Origin: Sphingomonas aerophila
Lineage (GTDB): Bacteria; Pseudomonadota; Alphaproteobacteria; Sphingomonadales; Sphingomonadaceae
Direction: 5' to 3'
Length of the DNA stretch: 64,000 nt
Assembly (NCBI RefSeq): GCF_014199305.1
Contig: NZ_JACIJK010000002.1
Coordinates: 124,001-188,000 of the forward strand
In this document: positions 24,213 to 30,809 of the stretch, one piece after another
Numbering within the stretch: the stretch's first letter is position 1
How the letters are laid out: every line of letters begins with the position of its first letter
Program-made: the position numbers and the translations under genes
Notes under the pieces: generated by a model
What the model saw: only the letters and a program-made list of their open reading frames with translations
What the model was told of the DNA's origin: nothing
The model's database searches: none

Positions 24213-27200
24213 TCAGTGGAAGTCGTGGCTGCGGATCGGGATCACCTCCTCCGGGTCGCACCCGGTGCGAAAGGGTGGATGGTAGAGGCTGCGTGGCTTG
24301 GGCTTCCATCCCGTCTCACCGCGGTCGGGTGAGCCGGCGTGGGTGGCGCCGTCGCCGGGGCTGGTTAGGCGCGGCATGTCGATTTCACCGACCTCGCGCA
24401 GCATGGCCGTGCGGTCATGGATGCGATCCGCGATGACGTGGATCACTTCTCCCTCGCGCTGCACCACGCCCGTCACGCTGATCATCGCGGAGGACATCAC
24501 GGTTGTGCGCTGGGCCTCAAACCGATCGGGCCACAGGATGATGTTGGCGACGCCGGTCTCATCCTCGACCGTGATGAACAGAACGCCCTTCGCGCTGCCA
24601 GGCTTCTGGCGGACCAGGATGATGCCCGCGACCTCGACACGACGCCCGTCGCGTGTGTCGCGCAGCGCAGCGCAGGTAATCACCCGCTGCCGCGCCAGCT
24701 CGCCGCGCAGGAAGAACAAGGGATGCTGGCGCAGCGTCAGCTGGGTCGCGCGATAGTCTTCGACCACTTCCCGCCCTGCCGTGAGTGCCACCAGCGACAC
24801 CGGCTCCTCGCGCCGCTCGGCAGCCTCCAGCAACGGCAGCGGCGTTTCGCCCAAGCCGCGGATCGCCCATAGCGCCTGACGCCGGTCCAGCCCCAGCGCG
24901 CGGAAAGCATCGGCCTTGGCGAGCTTCTCCAGCGTCGCGAGCGGCACGCCCGACCGCCGCCACATGTCCTCAACCGATGTGAACGGCGCCACTTCCCGCG
25001 CCGTCAGGATGCGAACGGCATCGATCACGGCGACACCGTGCACGATGCGCAGCCCCAGCCTGAGTGGCAGTTGGCCGTTTTTGCCGCCACCCTCTCCTAC
25101 CAGCCGCGTGTCCCAATCGCTCTCGACCACGCAGACCGGCTGCACCCTGACGCCATGCTCGCGCGCATCGCGGACGATCTGTGCGGGGGCATAGAAGCCC
25201 ATCGGCTGCGCATTGAGCAACGCCGCGCAGAACACGTCGGGATGATGGCACTTCATCCAGGACGAGGCATAGGCGATCTTGGCAAAGCTCGCCGCATGGC
25301 TTTCGGGGAAGCCATAGGAGCCAAACCCCTCGATCTGCTTGACCAGCCGCTCGGCGAACTCGGGGCCGATCCCCCTCTCGGCCATGCCCTCGATCAGCTC
25401 CGCTTTGAACTGCCCAACCCCTTGCGTGTATTTGAACGTCGCCATGGCCTTGCGTAGTTCATCGGCGCGGGCGGGCGTGAAGCCTGCGCCCTCGATTGCG
25501 ACCTTCATCGCCTGTTCCTGGAACAAGGGCACGCCATAGGTTTTGGCCAGCACCGCCTTCAGCGCAGGGCTGGGATAGTCGAACTCAATGTCCGGATTAC
25601 GCCGCTTCTGCTCGCGCCGCCTCAGATACGGGTGCACCATGTCGCCCTGGATTGGACCGGGGCGGACGATCGCGACCTGGATGGCAATGTCGTAGAAGGT
25701 TTCGGGCCGCATCCGTGGCAGCATCGCCATCTGCGCGCGGCTTTCTATCTGGAAGACGCCCAGCGTGTCGGCGCGCTGGATCATGGCAAAGGTCTGGGGA
25801 TCGTCGACCTGCAACGCCTCATGATCCAGCGTCAGGTGCACGTCCTTGTGCAGCGCGAGCAGGTTAAAGGCCCGCCGCATGCAGCCGAGCATACCCAAGC
25901 CGAGGATATCGACCTTCATCATCCCCGCTTCCTCGATGTCCTCCTTTTCCCATTCCACCACGCGTCGGTCGGTCATGGAGGCAGGCTCGATCGGCACCAG
26001 CCGGTCCAGGCGATCGCGGGTGAGCACGAAACCGCCGGGATGCTGCGACAGGTGGCGGGGCGTGCCGATCAGCTCGCGCGCCAGTTCCAGCGTCAGCGCC
26101 AGGCGCGGGTCGCCGCGGTCGAGGTTGAGCGCGTCGACGTGCCGGTCGGCGACGCCCTCCTCCGACCAGCCCCATACCTGTCCGGCGAGCGCTGCCGTCA
26201 TGTCTTCGGGCAGGCCAAGCGCCTTGCCGACTTCCCGCACGGCGCCCCGCGCGCGAAAGCGGCTGACCACCGCGGTCAGCGCGGCATGTTCATGGCCATA
26301 GGTTTCATAGATCCATTGGATCACTTCCTCGCGCCGTTCATGCTCGAAATCGATGTCGATGTCGGGCGGCTCTGCGCGGTTCTCGGACAGAAATCGCTCG
26401 AACAGCAGTTGGTGCACGACCGGATCGATCGAGGTGATGCCAAGGACGAAGCAGATCACCGAATTGGCGGCGGAGCCACGCCCCTGGCACAGGATCTCCT
26501 GGCTGCGTGCGAACTCCACGATCGAATGGACGGTCAGGAAGTACGCCGCGTAGTTGAGCTTCGCTACCAGCCCCAGCTCCTTGGCCAGCAGCTCGCGGTA
26601 CACGACCGGCGGGTTGCCGCTGAAGCGCTGCTCCAGCGCGCGGGAGGACAGCTTTTCCAACGCCTGTTGCGGCGTTTGCCCGGCCATCACCGCTTCTTCG
26701 GGATAGAGGTACTGGTCGCGCAGGTTGCGAGGTGAAAAGCTGCAACGCTCCACGATAGCCTCCACCGCGGCCAGCGCTTGAGGATAGCGGCCGAAGCGAC
26801 GGGCCATCTCGTGCGGGGGTTGCAGGCAGCGATCGGCGGAGCGTTCGCGCTTCAGGCCAAGGTCGTCGACCGTGCACTTTTCCCGGATCGCAGTCACCAC
26901 GTCCTGCAACAGGCGGCGGTCCGGTTCGTGGTAGAGCACGTCGCCCGTGACGAGTGGCGTCAGGCCATAGCGCGCCGCGTCTCCCGCCGCCTGGTGCAGC
27001 CGGCGCGCATCGTCCGGGCGTCGGCTCTGTGTCAGGCAGACATGGCCGCGATCCCGCCCGAACAGGTCCGCCATCCAGCGCAACTGCTCCTCGACACACC
27101 CGTCAGTGTCCGGCACCAGCGATGCGACCAGGCCATCGGCATGCGCGGCCAGATCCTCCCAATGCAGGAAGCATCGTCCCTTTTCGCCATGCTGCGGCCG

Positions 27201-27512
27201 CGCGCGCGCCTTGCCGATCGTCAGCAGCCGCGTCAGCCGGCTCCACGCGTCCAGGTCCTCCGGCCAGACCAGGACTGACGCGCCGGACACAAGGTCAAGC
27301 CGGCACCCAGTGACCAGGCGGATGGGCGCGTGCTGGTGCGACACCTCCTCGGCGGCGACCAGCGATCGCATGATGCCGGCAACCGAATTGCGGTCGGTGA
27401 TGCCCAGTGCCGGCATGCCCATGGTGGACGCGGTCGCGAACAGCTCCTCACACGACGACACGCCGCGCAGAAAGCAGAAGTGGGTGGACACCTGCAGCTC
27501 GCTATAGGTCAC
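24213..27512 (-). CDS. dnaE2: Error-prone DNA polymerase III alpha-like subunit DnaE2
   Basis: DnaE2 is the C-family polymerase of the ImuA-ImuB-DnaE2 mutasome that copies damaged templates. The 1099-residue protein has an N-terminal PHP domain (about 1-250), the palm with GRGSAANSVICFVLGI and PPDIDIDFEHERR carrying catalytic Asp residues, fingers, and a C-terminal OB fold (GVLFITVEDETGVANIILWP). The length matches DnaE2 and lacks the C-terminal tau-binding part of DnaE1. The start is GTG 27512, 16 bases after imuB. Confidence 0.95.
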   Translation of the reverse strand: MTYSELQVSTHFCFLRGVSSCEELFATASTMGMPALGITDRNSVAGIMRSLVAAEEVSHQHAPIRLVTGCRLDLVSGASVLVWPEDLDAWSRLTRLLTIGKARARPQHGEKGRCFLHWEDLAAHADGLVASLVPDTDGCVEEQLRWMADLFGRDRGHVCLTQSRRPDDARRLHQAAGDAARYGLTPLVTGDVLYHEPDRRLLQDVVTAIREKCTVDDLGLKRERSADRCLQPPHEMARRFGRYPQALAAVEAIVERCSFSPRNLRDQYLYPEEAVMAGQTPQQALEKLSSRALEQRFSGNPPVVYRELLAKELGLVAKLNYAAYFLTVHSIVEFARSQEILCQGRGSAANSVICFVLGITSIDPVVHQLLFERFLSENRAEPPDIDIDFEHERREEVIQWIYETYGHEHAALTAVVSRFRARGAVREVGKALGLPEDMTAALAGQVWGWSEEGVADRHVDALNLDRGDPRLALTLELARELIGTPRHLSQHPGGFVLTRDRLDRLVPIEPASMTDRRVVEWEKEDIEEAGMMKVDILGLGMLGCMRRAFNLLALHKDVHLTLDHEALQVDDPQTFAMIQRADTLGVFQIESRAQMAMLPRMRPETFYDIAIQVAIVRPGPIQGDMVHPYLRRREQKRRNPDIEFDYPSPALKAVLAKTYGVPLFQEQAMKVAIEGAGFTPARADELRKAMATFKYTQGVGQFKAELIEGMAERGIGPEFAERLVKQIEGFGSYGFPESHAASFAKIAYASSWMKCHHPDVFCAALLNAQPMGFYAPAQIVRDAREHGVRVQPVCVVESDWDTRLVGEGGGKNGQLPLRLGLRIVHGVAVIDAVRILTAREVAPFTSVEDMWRRSGVPLATLEKLAKADAFRALGLDRRQALWAIRGLGETPLPLLEAAERREEPVSLVALTAGREVVEDYRATQLTLRQHPLFFLRGELARQRVITCAALRDTRDGRRVEVAGIILVRQKPGSAKGVLFITVEDETGVANIILWPDRFEAQRTTVMSSAMISVTGVVQREGEVIHVIADRIHDRTAMLREVGEIDMPRLTSPGDGATHAGSPDRGETGWKPKPRSLYHPPFRTGCDPEEVIPIRSHDFH

Positions 27513-27528
27513 CGGGAACGTCCCACCG

Positions 27529-30108
27529 TCAATTGCCGAGCCCGTGCAGGAACCAGCTGAGGTCGCCCGTTTCCGCGCGCATGCCGTCGCCGCGGCGGAA
27601 CAGCCAGAAACGCTGGCCGCCCTCGTCTTCCACCCGGAAATAATCGCGCACCGCCAGCCGCTCGGGGCTACGGCGCCACCATTCGCCCGCCACGCGCTCC
27701 GGCCCCTCTGCCCGGATCACGCGATGCGTTTCGCCCCGCCAGGTAAAGCGGCGGGGTGGCTGGTCGGGCAGACCCGCCACGACATGGTCGATCCGCTCGG
27801 GCCGGCGCAGCAGCCACACGGGCCTGGGCCAGCGCGGGTGCCAGGGGTGGTCCTGACTGCGTCCGTCCAGCCGCCGAACGTCATCTGCCTTCAGCGCGCG
27901 CGCCTGCGCACGGGGCGCCTCCAGTGGCAAAGCCCTGGTGCAGGAACGCTCCGGCACGTCGCTGTCGACGGGGGCCACGCGCCACAGCCGGTCGGCGCCG
28001 ATCCGGTTCGCGAGTGCGTCGATCAGCGGCGCAAGATCCCCCGCGGCCTCGTCCGCCAGTGCCGGTGCCAGTGACTCCGGCCCCAGCGGATCGGCGCGGT
28101 GAACCAGCAGCGTGATAGCATCGATGCCATAGCCAGGCTCGATCTCCTCCATCCGCCGGAGCGTCAGGCGCAGCATGTGCCCCGCGTCCCTGGTCGGGCG
28201 CGCAAAGCCGAGCCGCATACGCTGCGGAACCCCGTCCACGCGCGCTGCCACCATCTCCACGACACGCGCGCCCTGCCCGGCCTGGGCGAGTTCGATCGCC
28301 AGTCGGGCCATCAATTCACGCAACCAGTGCTCGATCGCCTCCGGTGTCGCGATCGGTTCCGCAAAGCGCTGTTCCACCGACACCCGCGTCGGCGGGATGA
28401 CCGGGTCCAGCGGCTCGGGCAGGCGGCCGATTGCCTGGTCCAGCCGATCGGCGATGACACGGCCGAACCGGCGCACCAGCGGTGCACGCGGCATAGCCGC
28501 CAGCTGCCCGATGGTATCGACGCCCAGCCTCGCCAGCAGCTCGAGCGCGGGTGCCTCCAGTCGCAGCGCAGCCACCGGCATGCTCGCCAGCGCCGCTGCC
28601 TGCATACCGGCCCCCAGCACCTGCACCGGCTCGGCATAACCGAACCGCGCCAGTGCCCAGGCCGCCCCCGCGCTGTCCGCCACCGCTACTCGCGCGGTGA
28701 CGCCATGACGGGCGAGCAGGCGGACCAGCCGCCGTGCGAAGCGCGCTTCACCGCCATGCAGGTGCGCGACACCGGTCAGGTCGATGAACAGGCCATCGGT
28801 GCCACAGATCGACACGGTGGGAGCCCAACGCCGCGCCAGCAGTTCGGCGAGCGAGTGCAGGTCCGCTGCATCGCCATCCGGATCCGCCGTTCGCACCTCC
28901 AGGTCGGGCACCTGAGCACGCGCCATGGTCAGCGCGGTGCCGGGCCCGATCCCGAGCGCACGGGCGGTGGCATTGGCGGCAACCACCTCCACGCGCGATC
29001 CCGTTCGTGCCGTGGTCACCATCGGCGCTTCCGCTGCGTCCGCTGGCGCCGCGGTGCTGAGTTCGTCGTCACGGCACACGCGTGACACCACGCTAGCCAG
29101 CGTACGGCCGGTTTGAAAGAAGCGCCCCTGGCCATAGGTCGGCGCGGTAGGCGCGCTGCGCCCGTGATTGTCGGGATGCGGCCCCTCGCCCGGAAACTGG
29201 ACAGCGGGCATGGCGGCCAGCTGAGCCAGGCTGGGCGGCGTGACATAACCCGCTTCCCCGCCATGGCCGTCCCGCGCGGACCGGCGCGGTGTGCGCATGG
29301 CGCGGCGTACCACCACATCCTCGCCCGGGCCGTGCACCGGCGGCATGGCAGCTGCACGGGCAAGCGACAGGGGCGCAGCCGGCGCTTCGTTGCGATAGCG
29401 ATCACGCCTGGTTTCGCCTTGCAACGCGGCACCACGCCCTGCCTTGGCCGGAGCATCCTCGCCCGGGAACTGAAGCGACGGCATGGCCGCATACCGGCGA
29501 AGGCTCGCACCTACCTCATCGGCCGGGGCCGGGCGGAACGGGTTGTCGACCACCTCGCTCTTTCGCGACAGCTCCTGCATCGATGGGCGCTGGTGAACGG
29601 GCAGCGCGCTCACGGCCGATTGCAGGTCCTCGCCGTGCCAGCCGCGGGTGCCCGGCCTGAACAGCGGTTCGGCGGCTTCGGTACGCCTGGCCATTTCACG
29701 CAGGGGCGCTGGCGCCGCTACGCGCTCCTCTGGCGGCCGTGACAGGCCCTTTCTGGCCGGCCCTGTGGCAAAGGGGTTGTCCGCTGCCTGGCTGGTGCGG
29801 CCCAACTCGCGCTGGGGCGGACGGCGATGGTTGGGCAGCGCCTCGATCGCGGCCTCCACCTCCCGGCGCGAGTCGGCCAGCGCGCTGCCACCCACATCGG
29901 GGTCGCTTCGTGCCCAACGTGCGCCAGGGCGCCAGCCGCCCTCGTTGGGCACTGAACAATGCTGAGCGCGCTCTGCCGCCGCATCGGCGCCCAGCGCATC
30001 AAGGGCGGCGCTCGCGTCGGCCTCAGCCGACGGCGCGCGCCGGCGCTCGATCCTGCGCAGCCGGTCGATCGACCAGTGCGGCAGGTAGAGCGAGGCGACC
30101 CGCTTCAT
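27529..30108 (-). CDS. imuB: ImuB, catalytically inactive Y-family polymerase with a long repeat-bearing insertion
   Basis: ImuB is the hub that links DnaE2 to the sliding clamp. From ATG 30108 it has 859 residues, while ImuB proteins are usually about 500. The N-terminal strand VASLYLPHWSIDRLRR (4-19) is followed by an Ala/Arg/Pro-rich insert (about 22-360). The Y-family fold resumes at PMVTTARTGSRVEVVAANA (362-380), continues through GLFIDLTGVAHLHGGE (439-454) and includes helix-hairpin-helix and little-finger regions. Catalytic Asp/Glu residues of active Y polymerases are absent. The start lies 86 bases inside imuA; an upstream extension to 30219 is unlikely. Confidence 0.88.
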   Translation of the reverse strand: MKRVASLYLPHWSIDRLRRIERRRAPSAEADASAALDALGADAAAERAQHCSVPNEGGWRPGARWARSDPDVGGSALADSRREVEAAIEALPNHRRPPQRELGRTSQAADNPFATGPARKGLSRPPEERVAAPAPLREMARRTEAAEPLFRPGTRGWHGEDLQSAVSALPVHQRPSMQELSRKSEVVDNPFRPAPADEVGASLRRYAAMPSLQFPGEDAPAKAGRGAALQGETRRDRYRNEAPAAPLSLARAAAMPPVHGPGEDVVVRRAMRTPRRSARDGHGGEAGYVTPPSLAQLAAMPAVQFPGEGPHPDNHGRSAPTAPTYGQGRFFQTGRTLASVVSRVCRDDELSTAAPADAAEAPMVTTARTGSRVEVVAANATARALGIGPGTALTMARAQVPDLEVRTADPDGDAADLHSLAELLARRWAPTVSICGTDGLFIDLTGVAHLHGGEARFARRLVRLLARHGVTARVAVADSAGAAWALARFGYAEPVQVLGAGMQAAALASMPVAALRLEAPALELLARLGVDTIGQLAAMPRAPLVRRFGRVIADRLDQAIGRLPEPLDPVIPPTRVSVEQRFAEPIATPEAIEHWLRELMARLAIELAQAGQGARVVEMVAARVDGVPQRMRLGFARPTRDAGHMLRLTLRRMEEIEPGYGIDAITLLVHRADPLGPESLAPALADEAAGDLAPLIDALANRIGADRLWRVAPVDSDVPERSCTRALPLEAPRAQARALKADDVRRLDGRSQDHPWHPRWPRPVWLLRRPERIDHVVAGLPDQPPRRFTWRGETHRVIRAEGPERVAGEWWRRSPERLAVRDYFRVEDEGGQRFWLFRRGDGMRAETGDLSWFLHGLGN
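29187..29841 (-). repeat. Short repeated peptide motifs encoded inside the ImuB insertion
   Basis: Two families are visible. Family A is ALP-x-H-x-RP...(R/Q)EL-x-R-x-S-x-x-x-DNPF at residues 90-113 and 168-191, with a shorter relative ending EAAEPLF at 134-150. Family B is AAMP-x-(L/V)-x-x-PGE at 207-217, 253-263 and 298-308. Spacing within family B is about 45 residues. The copies are diverged at the DNA level. Confidence 0.7.
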
Positions 30109-30794: not shown

Positions 30795-30809
30795 GTTCGT
30801 GTTTTGTTC
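30795..30809 (-). promoter_or_regulatory. LexA (SOS) box GTTC-N7-GTTC upstream of imuA
   Basis: GTTC at 30795-30798 and GTTC at 30806-30809 are separated by seven bases (GTGTTTT), matching the alphaproteobacterial LexA operator. It lies 22 bases upstream of the imuA start, where LexA would block transcription until DNA damage. Confidence 0.85.

Follow-up and report, generated by a model that had tools for sequence, protein, structure and literature searches.

The ImuB proteins described in most detail are those of mycobacteria. In the available parts of PMC6511836, PMC10421592 and PMC11791113, mycobacterial ImuB is presented as a catalytically dead Y-family scaffold that carries a RecA-NT motif and an ImuB-C domain and has ImuA′ and DnaE2 as partners, and the excerpt of PMC10421592 reports that its sliding-clamp motif, QLPLWG at residues 352–357, is essential. 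A clamp-binding motif is also described for the ImuB of Caulobacter in the accessible part of PMC8102061, and the accessible main text of PMC12926913 says that ImuBs vary by deletions and does not contain the word ‘insertion’. The ImuB considered here is encoded by Sphingomonas aerophila (GCF_014199305.1, contig NZ_JACIJK010000002.1, positions 124,001–188,000); these 64,000 nucleotides (nt) are the whole stretch of DNA that was analysed and are called the window. Compared by description, the window resembles the mycobacterial system in having an ImuB scaffold with a RecA-NT-like stretch and a presumed ImuB-C domain, encoded together with ImuA and DnaE2. In contrast, where mycobacterial ImuB has QLPLWG, the corresponding glutamine is missing from a clade of sphingomonad ImuBs, the window's among them, and these have a long loop that bears motifs. 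The reading favoured here, by a modest degree, sees the insert as a docking arm of the SOS mutasome that carries several motifs, is largely disordered and belongs to this clade alone. In many bacteria ImuB stands at the centre of a polymerase complex that makes mutations. The clamp peptide is essential in mycobacteria; this clade has lost its key residue, yet keeps the cassette and a conserved motif-bearing arm, so that the way the mutasome is recruited can be tested directly in harmless soil and leaf bacteria. Literature searches on sphingomonad ImuB and DnaE2, on disorder and insertions in ImuB and on the mutasome in general gave no description of the insert among the matches listed (titles and abstract starts of open-licence papers).

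In the window's ImuB some 330 additional residues separate the first helix of the Y-family core from its second strand. On a fixed measure, which starts 6 residues beyond the strand anchor and stops 8 residues inside the resumed core, the loop comes to 360 amino acids (aa) in the window vs 26–56 aa in short-loop ImuBs. Residues 29–361 consist of 18.6% Ala, 12.0% Arg, 11.1% Pro and 7.2% Glu. Residues 18–360 searched alone matched no Pfam family at E ≤ 10, and a PDB sequence search with the insert gave nothing better than E 0.066, and a domain of known family was rejected; the whole protein gave one Pfam match below the cut-off, HTH_31 at residues 11–47 (E 0.059). The loop and its parts, with the evidence for each, are as follows.

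29026..30036, minus strand: extra loop, residues 25–361 (alignment, AlphaFold2, loop measure)
29908..29958, minus strand: island W, residues 51–67, CSVPNEGGWRPGARWAR, motif GWRPGARWA (profile, selection)
29770..29862, minus strand: A1, residues 83–113 (self-comparison, profile)
29650..29709, minus strand: A2, residues 134–153, a weak copy (self-comparison, profile)
29536..29628, minus strand: A3, residues 161–191 (self-comparison, profile)
29455..29505, minus strand: B1, residues 202–218 (self-comparison, DNA repeats)
29317..29367, minus strand: B2, residues 248–264 (self-comparison, DNA repeats)
29248..29274, minus strand: RDGHGGEAG, residues 279–287 (selection, computed on 278–288)
29164..29232, minus strand: B3, residues 293–315, SLAQLAAMPAVQFPGEGPHPDNH (self-comparison; selection, computed on 295–314)
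29074..29127, minus strand: island F, residues 328–345, GRFFQTGRTLASVVSRVC (profile, selection)

The repeats were assessed by ungapped self-comparison with BLOSUM62 against 300 shuffles, whose best score averaged 36.7 (standard deviation 5.2, largest 67). A1 against A3 (residues 83–118 and 161–196) scored 99, beyond all the shuffles, and the B pairs scored 58 (B1–B3), 54 (B2–B3) and 51 (B1–B2), which is above most shuffles and under the largest; A2, at 39–40, is not significant alone. Seven diagonals reached at least 36 (six repeats and a long, diffuse match that is no repeat), vs a shuffle mean of 0.77 and a maximum of 4. With profiles, all built from members of the same sequence set, A2 received 1.3 bits in the window (top of 1560 shuffled scores, 0.5), 7.7–17.2 bits in the relatives L006, L007, L008, L010 and L012, and less than 0.5 in L004, L015, L016 and L042. 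The B copies are visible in the DNA as three 37-nt direct repeats with spacings of 135 and 138 nt. An earlier note on this DNA had read a repeat-bearing insert of about 340 residues in an 859-residue ImuB, and the Pfam search, the loop measure and the shuffle tests bear it out; its residue ranges and its DNPF, EPLF and AAMP–PGE motifs are as it gave them, and its two repeat families hold for A1 with A3 and for the B pairs, A2 being the copy that does not stand alone.

The loop is real and marks a clade of Sphingomonadales ImuBs, a finding wider than the single case noted at first; it is motif-bearing and probably disordered. ImuBs were gathered from four sources: named genomes, which gave 37 loci; 298 family genomes, of which 269 had a match; 240 genomes across the class, 3 of them belonging to the family, of which 123 matched at E ≤ 0.001, some weakly and in a DinB-like way; and 60 hand-chosen stretches (58 ImuB places and two truncated genes). 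Because these loci were sought by similarity to the ImuB of the window, the counts describe a sample of 132 rows, not all ImuBs. Rows dropped from it are the window copies L070, L100, L101 and L105; the fragments L034, L037 and L039; L003, the same gene as L002; L041, L043 and L044, taken as copies of L016, L009 and L015 since lengths and scores agree; the truncated L165 and L166; L128 (wrong frame); L160; L040 (no usable frame); and 14 rows whose start pattern was unmatched (L002, L085, L088, L089, L091, L099, L150, L153, L155, L158, L159, L162, L164 and L167), those with a readable start looking short-loop by eye. Loops, counted as long from 60 aa upwards, measure 66–494 aa in 78 rows and 26–56 aa in the other 54. 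Among the long loops W is found in 77, A in 68, B in 32 and F in 35, and the order W, A, B, F held in 78/78; no short loop (0/54) had a motif above the shuffle maximum. In the window's subclade of 19 rows, 18 have two strong A copies, vs 0/59 of the remaining long loops, and A and B have evidently multiplied in that subclade. The insert is present and alignable in relatives, with a long loop in 78 of 132 ImuBs, and it is under selection; the outcome that the earlier note had named as adverse, an insert absent or unalignable in all relatives and free of selection, is not what was found.

In a core tree (quick IQ-TREE search, LG+G4, clamp linker omitted, with a long-branch warning for the outer rows) all 78 long loops fall within one 80-row Sphingomonadales clade with a Shimodaira–Hasegawa-like approximate likelihood ratio (SH-aLRT) of 99. 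Nested within it are L054 and L064, open frames with short loops. Presence of the insert changes three times on the tree, which fits one gain and two losses, and the loop was probably gained once. Genome-wide, the motif A profile matched 55/298 family genomes at E ≤ 0.01 and 40/298 at E ≤ 7.3e-12 (counted from the matches listed); to judge by position, the strong places belong to ImuB, two of them to truncated ImuB genes (L165 and L166, which retain motif A), and the other 15 genomes are at chance level. Class-wide, motif A was found in 1/240 genomes at E ≤ 1e-4, namely the window's own, where a search elsewhere in the genome gave one weak match (E 0.002, about half of the motif) and noise. 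The B3–F profile matched 20/298 family genomes at E ≤ 0.01, six of them strong and in ImuB frames.

Selection was estimated from the ratio of non-synonymous to synonymous differences (pN/pS) in the 19-species subclade, over 147 pairs, not independent of one another, with core synonymous divergence (dS) < 1.1. W (0.15), RDGHGGEAG (0.08), B3 (0.10) and F (0.16) are more constrained than the polymerase core (0.30); the other values are 0.31 for A1, 0.19 for A2, 0.43 for A3, 0.34 for B1 and 0.43 for B2. Pooled, the ratio is 0.25 for islands (95% range 0.20–0.30), 0.30 for the core (0.27–0.34) and 0.40 for spacers (0.34–0.46). Across 32 rows thinned to < 75% core identity, mean identity is 0.78 for W, 0.66 for A and 0.55 for the core, with best-scoring copies taken, which favours W and A.

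The AlphaFold2 model of the window's ImuB, built with 34 sequences, has a mean predicted local distance difference test score (pLDDT) of 58.5 and does not form the first strand. Residues 50–79, 99–136, 138–158, 182–293 and 299–358 are below pLDDT 50, and short helices are predicted at 81–90, 134–145, 159–168 and 177–188, in the A copies. In L030, a relative whose loop holds only W, the model has a strand at 4–8 and a helix at 12–24, both at a pLDDT of about 80, and then a strand at 74–79, which places the break between the first helix and the second strand; residues 30–69, which contain W, are below 50. The low pLDDT fits a disordered arm, short of proof. Together with the fixed order in 78/78 and the selection, it gives indirect support to the flexible, multi-motif part of the multivalent tether in the mutasome that the earlier note had proposed; the sliding-clamp part of that proposal is not supported, as set out further below. 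The parts of ImuB outside the loop are these.

30037..30108, minus strand: first strand and helix of the Y-family core, residues 1–24 (comparison with L030)
28093..29025, minus strand: Y-family core resumed, residues 362–672 (Pfam, AlphaFold2, Foldseek)
28069..28092, minus strand: DPLGPESL, residues 673–680, the place of the usual clamp-binding glutamine (alignment)
27976..28035, minus strand: RecA-NT-like stretch, residues 692–711, LAPLIDALANRIGADRLWRV (assigned by eye from the description in PMC6511836)
27544..27765, minus strand: DUF6504 domain, residues 782–855 (Pfam)

Pfam places IMS at 370–485 (from profile position 30), IMS_C at 575–672 and DUF6504, which we take to be the ImuB-C domain, at 782–855 (E 1.4e-7, above the curated cut-off). 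With IMS and IMS_C, Foldseek matches of the model to Dpo4/DinB polymerases (best E 1.3e-14) identify a Y-family core; global template modelling scores (TM-scores) are low because much of the model has low confidence. By eye, the first strand reads VASLYLPHW and has no Asp at what we presume to be a catalytic Asp position. The RecA-NT-like stretch, a label likewise given by eye, aligns in nearly all alignment rows.

Short-loop ImuBs, from other Alphaproteobacteria and other sphingomonads, share with the window the core, a similar imuA–imuB overlap and the RecA-NT-like stretch. In contrast to it, they have a loop of 26–56 aa and, in 48/54 cases, a glutamine before the RecA-NT-like stretch; at the same column the long-loop ImuBs have this residue in 0/78, the window having S679. 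Its position, together with forms such as QLPL and QLSL, leads us to infer that this conserved glutamine marks the clamp site in Alphaproteobacteria. The pattern Q-x-x-[LMIVF] is present in the linker of 1/78 long-loop vs 28/54 short-loop ImuBs. Fisher's test of arm against lost glutamine gives 1e-29, kinship ignored, and the link between the arm and the loss of the clamp-site glutamine is suggestive only.

On the favoured reading, the docking arm would be built into the fingers loop of ImuB, a presumed catalytically dead Y-family scaffold, and several short islands (W, A, B and F) would act as docking motifs for one or more proposed mutasome partners. More weakly, the arm may supply part of the recruitment given elsewhere by the clamp peptide, because the clade lacks the conserved glutamine at the usual clamp site. 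The boldest form that the data leave open is that the mutasome of this clade gave up the ImuB clamp peptide and that a disordered multivalent arm, stronger or weaker according to how many copies of A and B it has, became the new recruitment route; we regard such a replacement as doubtful.

A number of observations weigh against a docking arm and against its tie to the clamp site. L054 and L064 lack the arm, L056 has a loop of 71 aa in which both W and A are missing, and nine rows have W without A, so the arm is not strictly required. Besides the dependence among its pairs, the selection analysis has A1 equal to the core in constraint, A3, B1 and B2 looser, and the pooled islands overlapping the core; the ‘spacers’ 29–50 (0.22) and 220–247 (0.24) are tighter than the core, which means that the island borders as drawn are not the whole story. 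With no more than 34 related sequences behind the model, its low pLDDT goes only a little way towards proving disorder. As to the clamp site, 24/78 long-loop ImuBs have some glutamine in residues 673–691, and 15/78 have it one residue before the column; L116, L129, L130 and L136 lost the clamp-site glutamine yet have no arm; and the link amounts to about one phylogenetic event, with two independent pairs and a sign test of p = 1, which has no power.

Among the rival explanations, the one that survives best gives the islands an intramolecular role, in which they would pack against ImuB itself, on its core or its ImuB-C domain, with a stabilising or gating effect, instead of binding partners. 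The position of the loop beside the fingers suits this, as does the fact that the strong A and B3–F matches sit in ImuB in the genomes searched. Contrary to it, W lies in blocks of mean pLDDT 33–35 in the window's model and in the low-confidence residues 30–69 of the W-only L030, and two open-frame members (L054 and L064) do without the arm; an intramolecular role appears fairly unlikely.

Neutral growth, in which a dead polymerase can accommodate insertions in its fingers loop, so that repeats and palindromes pile up there without function, draws on the length range of 66–494 aa, on a pN/pS of 0.67 for the stretch 346–360 and on repeat elements found in other members of the clade. A pattern search found in-frame palindromic repeats in 12/78 inserts (L017, L021, L022, L024, L025, L027, L029, L035, L038, L047, L048 and L049) vs 2/78 cores, over 51.6 kb of insert and 114.5 kb of core, and several of the same genomes hold tens of copies. 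Counting up to two mismatches, a first element has 61 + 57 copies (two strands) in the genome of L022 and 2 + 8 in that of L017, and a second has 21 + 16 in that of L047 and 27 + 25 in that of L048, some inside imuB. That the loop accepts in-frame insertions favours a flexible region. Recurring genome-wide and lying in frame in the inserts, the two elements resemble the Rickettsia palindromic elements and repetitive extragenic palindromic (REP)-type repeats. In contrast to these, neither of the two elements tested has a copy in the window's genome, the window's insert DNA matches the rest of that genome over only 26–27 bp, and its islands are selected; repeat-element debris is thus ruled out for these two elements. 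Since the constraint on W, B3, F and RDGHGGEAG exceeds that on the core and the island order is unchanged in 78/78, neutral growth is already disfavoured for the islands, and for the insert as a whole we consider it improbable. In one row, L036, an in-frame repeat element of the CTTCGACAGGCTCAG type lies inside the polymerase core instead of the loop.

The earlier note had likened the DNPF and EPLF endings to sliding-clamp binding peptides, and an insert carrying such peptides, either at these endings or as loose Q-x-x-L forms such as the QREL in A1, would agree with the essential clamp motif of mycobacterial ImuB in the excerpt of PMC10421592, with the loss of the usual-site glutamine in the clade and with the loose forms alone that about half of the short-loop ImuBs (28/54 with Q-x-x-[LMIVF]) show at the usual site. 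Against this, Q-[LMI]-x-[LFM]-x was found in the loop or linker of 0/80 clade members, a narrow test that only 5/52 short-loop proteins pass in the linker, and Q-x-x-[LM]-x-[FLY] in 0/78 long loops; on these strict patterns a canonical clamp peptide in the insert was rejected. The loose Q-x-x-[LMI] is present in 47/78 loops vs a shuffle mean of 36 (range 25–48), not clearly above it, with QREL as its commonest form (19/78 loops, the window's included, within A1), through which a weak clamp contact may still be made. The constant residues of motif A also differ from those of clamp peptides: in the 32 thinned rows they are P100, P100, S100, H97, G97, R97, A97, P97 and F91, the motif ends in H/N-P-F, and its glutamine (72%, in HQRPxM) lacks clamp-type spacing. 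Clamp-binding peptides in the insert are therefore the least probable of these explanations, and a very unlikely one.

Around imuB, the window contains the imuA–imuB–dnaE2 cassette, all on the minus strand.

27529..30108, minus strand: imuB, 859 aa, coordinates including the stop codon
30023..30772, minus strand: imuA (NF033429, E 9e-17, 61.6 bits, below the curated NCBIfam cut-off of 150)
24213..27512, minus strand: dnaE2, error-prone C-family polymerase (open reading frame list and profile search)
30795..30809, minus strand: GAACN7GAAC site shortly 5′ of the imuA start (pattern search of the window)

The GAACN7GAAC site upstream of imuA is presumably an alphaproteobacterial LexA (SOS) box. 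The window has 3 matches to this pattern vs 1.45 expected, and at least 3 were found in 18/100 shuffles; the count is not above chance, and the argument is one of position, not of count. imuB begins within the final 86 nt of imuA, and the extra loop of ImuB starts at about the point where imuA ends, so that an insertion farther upstream would also alter ImuA. The upstream frame, taken as imuA, stops 77–152 nt inside imuB in 123/133 rows, the commonest overlap being 86 nt. In the window's ImuA, residues 207–214 read RQRGGDPF; its Q (77/77) and F (88%) characterise the ImuAs of the arm-bearing group, and neither occurs in 49 short-loop ImuAs. These two belong to 13 columns that differ between the groups; co-variation of ImuA with the arm was set aside because any long branch yields such columns.

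Two other places to which the clamp contact might have moved were rejected. In DnaE2 the candidate is YRATQLTLRQHPL, found in the same or a close form (QMSLR, QLSLR) in the 24 DnaE2s compared, which came from the arm-bearing side only; it was set aside since the stretch lies in what we take to be a structural segment of DnaE. The second is L002, an ImuB-like gene on another contig of the same genome. Its short frame of 493 aa ends in a DUF6504-like part and has QLTLF as a clamp-type motif; it lacks the arm, and no RecA-NT-like stretch is recognisable in the alignment. Relatives of L002 occur at E ≤ 1e-60 in 73/298 genomes, but these include ordinary ImuBs of other clades.

Parts of the insert match 22 sphingomonad plasmid records, none across > 80% of its length. 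On one plasmid record, NZ_CP110113.1 (L175:5957-6372), the annotated imuB start, 6121, lies inside the insert-matching stretch; by this one record, annotation may hide the arm, which may have been easy to miss. A further match, to residues 51–113 of the window's ImuB at 55.6% identity, comes from MT837036.1 (H21), a 7.9-kb record named ‘Bacteriophage sp.’ that is perhaps a bacterial fragment.

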